A stretch of 64,000 bases of DNA, taken from Acidobacteriota bacterium. GTDB taxonomy: Bacteria; Acidobacteriota; Vicinamibacteria; Vicinamibacterales; 2-12-FULL-66-21. The DNA is taken from the NCBI GenBank assembly GCA_016184105.1, contig JACPDI010000040.1, positions 62,001 through 126,000 of the forward strand. Reading direction: 5' to 3'. This document shows, piece after piece, positions 17,246-20,194 of this stretch; the first letter of the stretch is position 1; the number at the start of each line of letters is the position of its first letter. Position numbers and translations under genes: made by a program. The notes under the pieces were generated by a model. That model had not been told where the DNA came from and did no database searches. It saw only the letters and a program-made list of their open reading frames with translations.

Positions 17246-18628
17246 TTACCGGCTGGACGAGGCCGCCGGCAGCCGGACGCGGCCGACACCGTTGTCGAAC
17301 ACGACAGTGGTGCCGAACGGCTTCGAGAACCGCGCCACGTCGTCGATGATCTTCCGCGCGACATCGCCCTGCGCAAGCTGCGGCCGGCCGCGTTCGGCGG
17401 GAGGCTTGCCGAACCCGAGGCTGATCGGATGGAGGGTCAGCTCCTCGAGCGTGCCGTCACGCCACCGCGGCGCCGCGACGACCGCTTCCCAGATCTCCCG
17501 CTGCGCGGGAAAGCCGCGTTTGTCGAAATCGTAGCGGGCGTCGTTGAAGTCGGCGACGTGCGCCTCGGCGCCAAGCTTGTACGTGTCGTAGTTCTCCGCA
17601 GGCAACCGCAGCAGCGTCTCGTTCTGGAAGATGAAGTCGCCCAGGCTGTAGAACACCGGGCGCCCTTTGTACATCTCGATGCCACGCAGCACGTGCGGGC
17701 CGTGGCCGACAAACACCGTCGCCCCGGCGTCAATCATCGCGCGGGCAAAGGCCGGCAGGAAATCGGCCGGCACGAAGTTCGTCTCGCCGCGCTCGTGCGC
17801 ATGGATCGTCACGATCGTGTAGTCGGCGAGACGGCTCGCGTTGTGGACGACGGCGGCGATCGCCTTCACGTCTTCTTCGTCCGGCGCCGTGAGAACCGCG
17901 GGCGCATCGCCGCGCACGAAGCGCGCCCCGAGCAGGCCGAACGGCTCACCCGCCGGAGTCACGCTGAACCGCAACCGCTTCGCCGTCTCGCGCAGCGCCT
18001 CCAGGCGATCGGAGGGAAGCACGTAGGTCGTCGTGAAGCGAAGCGGGTTGAGGCCGGGGCGTGCGGGCATGTCGCCGCGCGAAGAACTCGCGCGGGAGTG
18101 ATCGGGGAAGGTCGAGGCGACCGACACCAGGGCCACGCGGCCGTTCGGCGTCTCGAGGAACTTCGCCTCGCGCGCCTGTTCGAGGCTCTCGCCGACACCG
18201 GCCTGCACGAGGCCGGCGTCCGCCACGTGACGCGTGGTCAGGCGCATGCCTTCCACGCCGTAGTCCCCCGTGTGGTTGTTCGCGCGCGAAACCATGTCGA
18301 AGCCGGCCCAGACGAGATCGCGCACCAGCGCCGGGTCGGCCCGCATGTAGGTGCCGCCGCTCTGGTTCATCGGGTACGGCTCGTAGTCGTGGAAGAGCAT
18401 TTCCAGGTTGGTGAACGCCACGTCGGCGCGCCGGATGATGTCGAACAGCTGCAGGAAGGCCGGCTCGGAATAAATCGCCAACCGGCGCGTGATGATCGAG
18501 TCGCCGGTCAGCGCCATGGAAAAGGTGCGCCCGTCGGGCTCCCGCGTGCGTGCGGGATTGCTCTGACCCGCCAGGTCGGATGTGAGCGCGATGACGAGGA
18601 ACGCTGCGGCAAGATGCACGAGGCGCAT
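17246..18628 (-). CDS. CapA family metallophosphatase-like protein (PGA_cap domain)
   Basis: 460 residues with a signal peptide (MRLVHLAAAFLVIALTSDLA). Motifs of the PgsA/CapA calcineurin-like fold are seen in order: ALTGDSIITRR, FTNLEMLFHDYE, SRANNHTGDYGVEG, VTIHAHE, VFVGHGPHVLRGIE and FYSLGDFIFQNE. CapA proteins take part in poly-gamma-glutamate synthesis or export; distant homologues occur alone, as here, without CapB or CapC, so the substrate is open. A -10-like CATAAT (18655-18650, minus strand) lies just upstream, next to the structured RNA region transcribed the other way. Probably in one transcript with the serine hydrolase downstream. Confidence 0.87.
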   Translation of the reverse strand: MRLVHLAAAFLVIALTSDLAGQSNPARTREPDGRTFSMALTGDSIITRRLAIYSEPAFLQLFDIIRRADVAFTNLEMLFHDYEPYPMNQSGGTYMRADPALVRDLVWAGFDMVSRANNHTGDYGVEGMRLTTRHVADAGLVQAGVGESLEQAREAKFLETPNGRVALVSVASTFPDHSRASSSRGDMPARPGLNPLRFTTTYVLPSDRLEALRETAKRLRFSVTPAGEPFGLLGARFVRGDAPAVLTAPDEEDVKAIAAVVHNASRLADYTIVTIHAHERGETNFVPADFLPAFARAMIDAGATVFVGHGPHVLRGIEMYKGRPVFYSLGDFIFQNETLLRLPAENYDTYKLGAEAHVADFNDARYDFDKRGFPAQREIWEAVVAAPRWRDGTLEELTLHPISLGFGKPPAERGRPQLAQGDVARKIIDDVARFSKPFGTTVVFDNGVGRVRLPAASSSR

Positions 18629-18660
18629 GGACCCTCCCGTTGACGGGGGATTATGCCGCA

Positions 18661-18932
18661 GGAGGTCTGGGCCCCCTGGACCCTGATCACATTTCCGTAA
18701 GTCGCCCCCGAAAACCGTCGGCGCAACCGTATCGTGCGGGCCCGGCCCGGCCGCAAACGAGCGAGAAATCGCCTGTAAACACGGGCGAATACGGCTCTCT
18801 GCGCGGTGGCATAGCCGCTGCTATGTCGGGGTGCAGGCGGCCTGAAATTACGGCAGGGAGCCGTGAGTTGCTGGGGAGCCGGGTCGCCAACTGGGCTGGG
18901 GCATCGTGAATAGCGATGCCCCACTTTTTTTT
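18661..18932 (+). ncRNA. Candidate structured RNA of unknown class, ending in a strong terminator
   Basis: A 327-base gap between two leftward genes ends, on the plus strand, in a textbook terminator with no plus-strand gene before it. The gap folds into several helices: CCGTAT (18727) with ATACGG (18789), enclosing TGCGG/CCGCA (18735, 18751), a GAAA-capped hairpin GCGA-GAAA-TCGC (18761-18772) and CTGT/ACGG (18773, 18781); then CTCTC with GGGAG (18795, 18856) enclosing CTGC/GCAG and the 8-bp hairpin GGCATAGC/GCTATGTC (18808-18827). I looked for and did not find signatures of tmRNA, RNase P RNA, SRP RNA or cobalamin and c-di-GMP riboswitches. The 5' end is not defined. Its neighbour is the DGQHR-domain gene. 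Confidence 0.5.
18898..18932 (+). terminator. Rho-independent terminator
   Basis: GGGGCATCG, seven-base loop, CGATGCCCC, then AC and eight T. The T-run is on the plus strand, so it stops rightward transcripts; the only candidate is the structured RNA. The minus strand lacks a T-run after the stem, so it is unlikely to serve the DGQHR gene. Confidence 0.85.
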
Positions 18933-18955
18933 GGCCTCGCCCTAAACCCTGAACC

Positions 18956-20092
18956 CTAGACCGTTGCCCCCTCCGGATACTGCAGCGCCAGGCGCAGTTC
19001 TTTCGCCAGCGAATCCACCGTCGTCCCCGAGCGCTTCCAGGCGCCGTCGGTCTCGAACCGGAGGTCGCCGATACGGCGGCCCCAGGGCGCGATGACGCGG
19101 CCGATCGCACGGAAGTCCGAGCGGTCCGCGTGCTCCTGGTCGAGCCGCCGGACGACGTCCGGCGCGACGCGGATAAAGGCGCGCAGCGCGCTCGCGTTCT
19201 TGATCGAGTACTTCCGGCCGTTCCACGCCGCGTTGAAGATCATCGCGATCTGCTTGAAGTAGTTCACGAAGAACTTCTTCGCGTCCTCCTGGAACTCTTC
19301 CCCCTTGCGGCCCGATCCGAACGCGTCGGTGCCGAACAGCTTCTTCAGCTCCTGCGCCAGGGGCGCCTGCGCCACGCGCCCCGTGCCCACGCCCAGCAGC
19401 TTGATCTCGTCATAGAGCGGCGAGTCCTCGCGGTCGTTGAGCGCGCGCACCACATCGTGCGCCGTCGCGAGGGCGTCATCCCGGTAGAGCTGCCGCCCCG
19501 AGAGCGACACGAGGTGCGACGCGTTCAAGCGCGTGTGTTTCGCGTTGATCGTGACGAACATCTGGACGACGTGATCTTCGGGGAGCTTGTCGAAGATGAT
19601 CGCCGGGACCGTGAACTGCTCCCCCTCGAACTTCTCGAGGTCCGCGTGCAGGGCGAGCAACCGGTGCTGGCCGTCGATCGCGCGCAGCACGCCTTCACGC
19701 TCGGGGATCTTCAACGTGCCGAGCGACGAGTTTTCCTCCGACGGCTCGAACTTCAGCGTTTCGTCCGACGAGATGATCACCGCGCCGGGTATCGACGGGA
19801 GGTCGCGTGCCTGCCGGCACTGCTCGTAGTACTGCACCAGCTCGTCGATCTTGCGGCGGATGATCTGCCGCTGGTAGGCCTTTTCGCTCGAGGCGATCCG
19901 CCGTTCGAGCAGATCCCAGTTGATGCGGTTCTGCCGGCCCCCTGCCTTGCCGCCCCGCACCGGCGGGTGCGCACTCTCGCCGTAGCTCAGGACCTCGAAG
20001 CGAACGAGCTTGTCTATGTCATTGGCGCTCAGCGAAGCCTGATAGAATGCGACGCCAAACTGCTGCATGCGGATTGCGGCAACGTGAATCAT
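18956..20092 (-). CDS. DGQHR-domain protein (DndB-like)
   Basis: 378 residues. The defining motif AIDGQHRLLAL lies at about residues 138-148, followed by the second conserved block MFVTINAKHTRLNASHL, both typical of DGQHR/DndB proteins that regulate or accompany DNA phosphorothioation and other defence loci. No dndA, dndC-E, ssp or dpt gene is in the window, so it stands alone. A -10-like TATAAA overlaps the upstream in-frame ATG (20101), so the ATG at 20092, eight bases beyond, was chosen as a leaderless start. Its stop codon lies within a TAGGGTTCAGGGTTTAGGG motif. The structured RNA is downstream on the opposite strand. Role unknown; a nucleic-acid-linked role is inferred from the family only. 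Confidence 0.85.
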   Translation of the reverse strand: MIHVAAIRMQQFGVAFYQASLSANDIDKLVRFEVLSYGESAHPPVRGGKAGGRQNRINWDLLERRIASSEKAYQRQIIRRKIDELVQYYEQCRQARDLPSIPGAVIISSDETLKFEPSEENSSLGTLKIPEREGVLRAIDGQHRLLALHADLEKFEGEQFTVPAIIFDKLPEDHVVQMFVTINAKHTRLNASHLVSLSGRQLYRDDALATAHDVVRALNDREDSPLYDEIKLLGVGTGRVAQAPLAQELKKLFGTDAFGSGRKGEEFQEDAKKFFVNYFKQIAMIFNAAWNGRKYSIKNASALRAFIRVAPDVVRRLDQEHADRSDFRAIGRVIAPWGRRIGDLRFETDGAWKRSGTTVDSLAKELRLALQYPEGATV

Positions 20093-20194
20093 ACGGGGCA
20101 TTTATAGGCTTAACAGCGCGGCAAACTCAAGGCCACCGCGTGGCCGTTCTGCCCGTTCCGTCACGCCATTTCACACGCCTGCAAGGAGTTATAT

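Follow-up and report, generated by a model that had tools for sequence, protein, structure and literature searches.

Does the 327-base gap between a capsule-synthesis-type gene and a DGQHR gene in a bacterium of the order Vicinamibacterales (phylum Acidobacteriota) encode an RNA, and if so, of what extent and kind? The gap lies in a stretch of 64,000 nucleotides that was analysed as a whole, termed the window here (Table 1). A sequence-only reading had described the gap as carrying a strong plus-strand terminator and no plus-strand gene. We saw the same gap and terminator (18897-18932) again, and no conserved plus-strand gene was found in 18629-18955; tRNA and tmRNA were also absent from it. 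Rfam gave no convincing match at the RNA in the window, even at permissive thresholds, and none at the gathering threshold. The covariance models of 6S, SRP, RNase P, tmRNA, and CsrB/RsmX did not reach their gathering thresholds at this RNA, and 20 homologue loci yielded only isolated sub-threshold Rfam matches. The fold of the whole 291-nt plus strand was moderately better than those of shuffled sequences (z = -2.45), compared to z = -1.47 for the minus strand of the same region.

Table 1 Features of the gap and its flanking genes in the window.
Feature	Position	Strand	Remarks
Gap	18629-18955		327 bases, between the PGA_cap gene and the DGQHR gene
PGA_cap gene, capsule-synthesis-type	17246-18628	-	Left flank of the gap
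Putative enhancer site (UAS), TGT-N10-ACA-like, CGTAAGTCGCCCCCGAA	18690-18715	+	Centre 104 bp upstream of the -24 box
Predicted sigma-54 promoter -24/-12, TGGCATAGCCGCTGCT, GG-N10-GC	18807-18822	+	Predicted +1 at 18833
Small RNA, predicted transcript of ~100 nt	18833-18932	+	Covariance models R1 and R2; 100/162 genomes of the order; z = -4.57
Closing stem P1	18836-18844 paired with 18880-18888	+	Arm-shuffle test; 8/9 core pairs with double-sided changes
Hairpin P2, UUACGGC / GCCGUGA	18848-18866	+	96% of cells paired; 4/7 pairs with double-sided changes
Mini-hairpin P3, GCU-GGGG-AGC, exposed G-run loop	18870-18879	+	Invariant core
Intrinsic terminator, stem GGGGCAUCG/CGAUGCCCC then T8	18897-18932	+	Terminator scan; double-sided changes at 9/9 pairs
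DGQHR-domain protein (DndB/DpdB-like) gene	18956-20101	-	Convergent with the RNA here; conserved neighbour; TIGR03187 6.4e-40, PF14072 1.8e-15

To collect homologues, 100 related genomes were searched at the DNA level, and the matches were oriented and aligned. They were nearly always single, and their common core was the right-hand part of the interval, where the aligned sequences shared one order of elements, a GG-N10-GC box followed by a short structured RNA and a terminator. The conserved part was thus the right-hand ~100 nt (18833-18932) rather than the ~250-nt transcript that had been expected. When 18834-18932 (99 nt) was folded alone, none of 200 shuffled sequences was as stable (z = -4.57), and its minimum-energy fold was the comparative structure of P1, P2, P3, and the terminator.

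The fold was examined by covariation. For P1, 296 of 324 cells were paired with the anchored arms, compared to 239 ± 6 after the arms were exchanged between genomes. In 87 aligned homologues, standard pairs made up 94.8% of pair cells (78.4% in shuffles), double-sided compensations numbered 390 (88 in shuffles), and pairing dropped to 25-48% when the partners were slid; this alignment was fitted to the structure of the covariance model, so the anchored arm-shuffle test is the more independent of the two. P3 was too invariant to yield covariation support, with GCU-G(4-7)-AGC found in 82 of 86 homologues and a G-run of 4 to 7. The P2 loop was unconserved, with many different sequences among homologues. 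Because P2 loops vary freely while GCU-G(4-7)-AGC stays invariant, the G-run loop is the predicted working site. This comparative evidence demonstrates the existence and the predicted fold of the RNA.

That the gap holds a structured RNA with its own terminator, outside Rfam, had been proposed from the sequence alone, and this part of the proposal is upheld by the strong covariation and the lack of an Rfam match. Judged from the homologues, the RNA exists, but the boundaries and fold first drawn for it are mostly wrong. They described an RNA of ~250 nt spanning 18661-18932 that could switch between two forms, and complementary segments are indeed present in this single sequence. In the left half, however, conservation is confined to the promoter and the enhancer site. 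The stretch 18661-18822, in which stems and long-range helices had been placed, consists of DNA of the enhancer and the promoter and shows no conserved structure; the ATACGG/ACGGCTCTC helices fall in promoter DNA beyond the limits of the predicted RNA, and homologues do not preserve them. The switch pairing of ACGGCTCTC with GGGAGCCGT lies upstream of the -24 box, is missing in relatives, and amounts to just 4-7 nt of exact complementarity across the window and 11 relatives. Adding the left half also weakens z from -4.57 to -2.45, and we give a bistable RNA of this length almost no credence. The compensatory changes that had been suggested as a check were strong in P1, P2, and the terminator and gave no support to the helices listed originally.

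The box upstream of the RNA matches a sigma-54 promoter. A GG-N10-GC with at least 9 of 12 specified consensus positions, located within the 40 nt before the model start, was found in 72 of 86 homologues, compared to 1.1% of shuffled sequences. The ~14 homologues without a clean consensus promoter (e.g. no GC at -12) belong mainly to one subgroup of family f2. De novo expectation-maximisation on the 86 homologues yielded an upstream motif, CAnatTGTAAtnnnnnnnACaaa, which is TGT-N10-ACA with flanks. Its distances to the -24 box, measured for 68 confident sites, cluster at 59-62, 69-72, 79-84, 92-94, 104, and 115 bp, with one outlier at 64. The sites are phased on the DNA helix: the circular statistic R reaches 0.83 for a repeat of ~11 bp, a degree of phasing that 0 of 5000 random distance sets attained. 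Such ~11-bp phasing is the expected trace of an activator that faces the polymerase through DNA looping. The copy in the window is among the weaker matches yet is in phase, and of the highest-ranked among 97 sigma-54-like sites in ~160 kb of DNA from the same genome it has the best enhancer score, as scored with a matrix whose training included this site. A reading of the GTAA...CGTC block as an ECF-type promoter was dropped; a sigma-54 promoter was found, and the block is phased relative to it. The promoter class and the phased enhancer are thus established comparatively, and the RNA is apparently switched on by the predicted sigma-54 promoter.

In the genome that holds the window, rpoN is present once, and ~40 enhancer-binding proteins are encoded. 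Near-perfect sigma-54 promoters were also observed there beside other enhancer-binding-protein genes (L179 2611, L181 2756, and L197 2333), and these have no TGT-N10-ACA. Because they lack it, TGT-N10-ACA is not general to sigma-54 promoters in this genome.

A candidate for the activator of the RNA is a response regulator of the same genome (C43:17141-18526) with Response_reg, sigma-54 AAA+, and Fis-type HTH domains. Both this protein and the RNA were found in 92 genomes, the RNA only in 8, the activator only in 34, and neither in 28 (p = 5e-8, Fisher test), with a co-occurrence within family f9 as well (p = 0.003); this co-distribution is confounded by shared ancestry, genome reduction, and fragmentary genomes. 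Because shared ancestry and fragmentary genomes weaken the co-occurrence, we treat the protein as a lead only. Another activator, C11:16298-17824, which served as a control, was rejected as the sole activator: the 100%-complete RNA-positive genome G007 is without it, and its occurrence does not follow that of the RNA (p = 0.14). These two were considered because their recognition helices look NifA-like by eye.

To describe the distribution of the RNA, two covariance models were run on 162 genomes of the order. Model R1 matched 90 of them, and model R2 identified the RNA in 100, among them 68 of 100 good-quality genomes; with R2, 60 of 86 genera were represented, and a genome nearly always carried one copy. 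Outside the order, ~300 genomes of the phylum gave three R1 matches and one R2 match with E values of 0.003-0.007, which is the chance level. When 84,980 named species genomes were scanned with a pattern, 30 matches came up; the covariance model confirmed 13, all labelled Acidobacteria, Vicinamibacteraceae, or Vicinamibacterales. Across these comparative searches, the predicted RNA is specific to the order Vicinamibacterales of the phylum Acidobacteriota. Departures from a single copy were also observed. A single-contig genome carries a tandem pair, each copy with its own sigma-54 promoter (L090 9896-9990 and 10231-10325; G027:C1:940495-940924), and two members of family f11 have diverged second copies at a separate locus (G051:C2:287112-287204, R2 E value 1e-4; G021:C38:7052-7145, R2 E value 3e-6).

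The RNA keeps company with the DGQHR gene. An orthologue of this gene was found in 109 of 162 genomes of the order. It is DndB-like, present in single copy, and mostly 75-85% identical across families, which is unusually well conserved, unlike a mobile defence gene, and the protein probably serves a core function of the order. A solved-structure search with the DGQHR protein gave no match. Of the 73 RNA copies from genomes holding both (R1 matches), 70 lie 3' of the DGQHR gene, and in the remaining three cases RNA and gene are on separate contigs. The 70 linked copies comprised 34 convergent ones, 21 on the same strand within 600 bp, and 15 on the same strand at 0.6-3.2 kb. In family f6 (loci such as L095 and L097), DGQHR and the RNA are separated by an inserted gene without a change in the orientation of the RNA; in g43, the inserted gene is dTDP-glucose dehydratase-like by eye.

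This arrangement bears on two readings that tie the RNA to its neighbour. According to one, the RNA would be a cis element, that is, the 3' UTR or terminator of the DGQHR mRNA or an antisense transcript of it. In the window, RNA and gene converge at a spacing of 31 bp, and in the 34 cases above they converge within 260 bp, but the 36 other copies are on the same strand as the gene, up to 3.2 kb off, and retain their own sigma-54 promoter, which makes a cis element highly improbable. According to the other, the RNA would be the partner of the adjacent DGQHR protein, either bound by it or regulating it. The position of the RNA in 70 of 73 testable copies, kept in two orientations and over distances of 6 bp to 3.2 kb, is consistent with a partnership, as is the co-occurrence (p = 8e-7, Fisher test). 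However, inherited synteny can account for the linkage, and the two do not always occur together. With R2, 18 of 100 RNA-positive genomes had no DGQHR; among these were G014 and G027, both complete in a single contig, and every genome of family f9 that has the RNA. A further 27 genomes with DGQHR showed no detectable RNA. In addition, pairing of the RNA to the DGQHR leader was rejected, as no conserved C-rich motif complementary to the RNA was found in the leader of the adjacent gene. We consider such a partner role very unlikely. The association noted in the sequence-only reading is statistically real, but an obligate partnership is contradicted by the 18 genomes; joint action is possible but weakened.

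Our preferred reading, which we regard as the probable one, is that the RNA is a stand-alone, ~100-nt regulatory sRNA of Vicinamibacterales that depends on sigma-54 and an enhancer-binding protein and acts through its predicted G-run loop. An enhancer-binding protein would bind the TGT-N10-ACA-like site 60-115 bp upstream and, once bound, would reach the sigma-54 RNA polymerase on the GG-N10-GC promoter through a DNA loop. We infer that transcription would then start at ~18833 and run as far as the intrinsic terminator, ending at ~18932. In the predicted RNA, P1 would close a junction formed by P2 and P3, and the terminator hairpin would stand at the 3' end. The G-run loop (GCU-Gn-AGC) would be the probable working part, and we infer that it most likely serves as a seed that pairs with C-rich (CUCCCC-like) stretches of target mRNAs or other RNAs.

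The same loop could instead be a protein site. In that case, the RNA would be a protein-binding or decoy sRNA whose invariant G-run hairpin titrates an RNA-binding protein, as in CsrB/CsrA and GlmY/RapZ, and it would not act by base pairing. A decoy is favored by the form of the invariant element, a small hairpin loop whose sequence is fixed, by the lack of detectable Hfq in the 96%-complete genome that holds the window (no PF17209 match), and by a GGA that the window copy carries in its P2 loop. On the other hand, this GGA is unconserved among homologues, the genome gave no CsrA match (PF02599), and a G-run varying from 4 to 7 nt is unusual for a tight protein site. A CsrA sponge of the CsrB/RsmZ type was ruled out, given the lack of CsrA in this genome and of a conserved loop GGA. 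We judge a decoy unlikely overall, though it fares better than the readings built on the neighbouring gene. Less probable than a decoy in general is a new RNA family whose GCU-Gn-AGC loop is recognised by an RNA-binding protein, possibly DGQHR, which would make it a sigma-54-controlled post-transcriptional regulator in Acidobacteriota without detectable Hfq or CsrA.

Acidobacteriota are abundant environmental bacteria, and the RNA is conserved across most genera of one order. With a defined promoter, enhancer, fold, and invariant loop, it is directly testable in cultured members. If the stand-alone sRNA reading is true, a lineage in whose sampled genome neither Hfq nor CsrA could be detected would have a regulatory RNA under sigma-54 control. 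In a limited literature search, we found no described sRNA of Acidobacteriota.

Several known systems resemble parts of this one. The Pxr sRNA of Myxococcus xanthus has a sigma-54 promoter with an upstream enhancer and three stem-loops, the third stem being variable, in a host without hfq; it is described as confined to myxobacteria, has an adjacent activator gene, pxrR, and loses function upon a single-base change in the SL1 loop (PMC5684412). Compared by described features and not by sequence, Pxr and the Vicinamibacterales RNA are alike in the sigma-54 promoter with enhancer, in the three stem-loops with a variable third stem, and in the host without hfq. The Qrr sRNAs are Hfq-dependent. 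In Vibrio, they have sigma-54 promoters activated by an enhancer-binding protein (PMC10162802). The sigma-54 control is alike, while the fold and the seed differ, and no Rfam family matched the Vicinamibacterales RNA. In enterobacteria, GlmY is transcribed from a sigma-54 promoter that QseF, a response regulator bound at upstream sites, activates (PMC6075780), and it is a decoy for RapZ (PMC7073468); its promoter class is alike, and its covariance model gave no match here. NifA-type promoters have a TGT-N10-ACA UAS upstream of the -24/-12 promoter (PMC2820453), and the likeness to the Vicinamibacterales RNA is limited to the half-site layout. By analogy with Qrr, GlmY, and Pxr, a regulatory sRNA under predicted sigma-54 and enhancer control is of a kind already known, whereas novelty, as far as our searches reach, seems to lie in the RNA family with its fold and invariant G-run loop and in the group of hosts.
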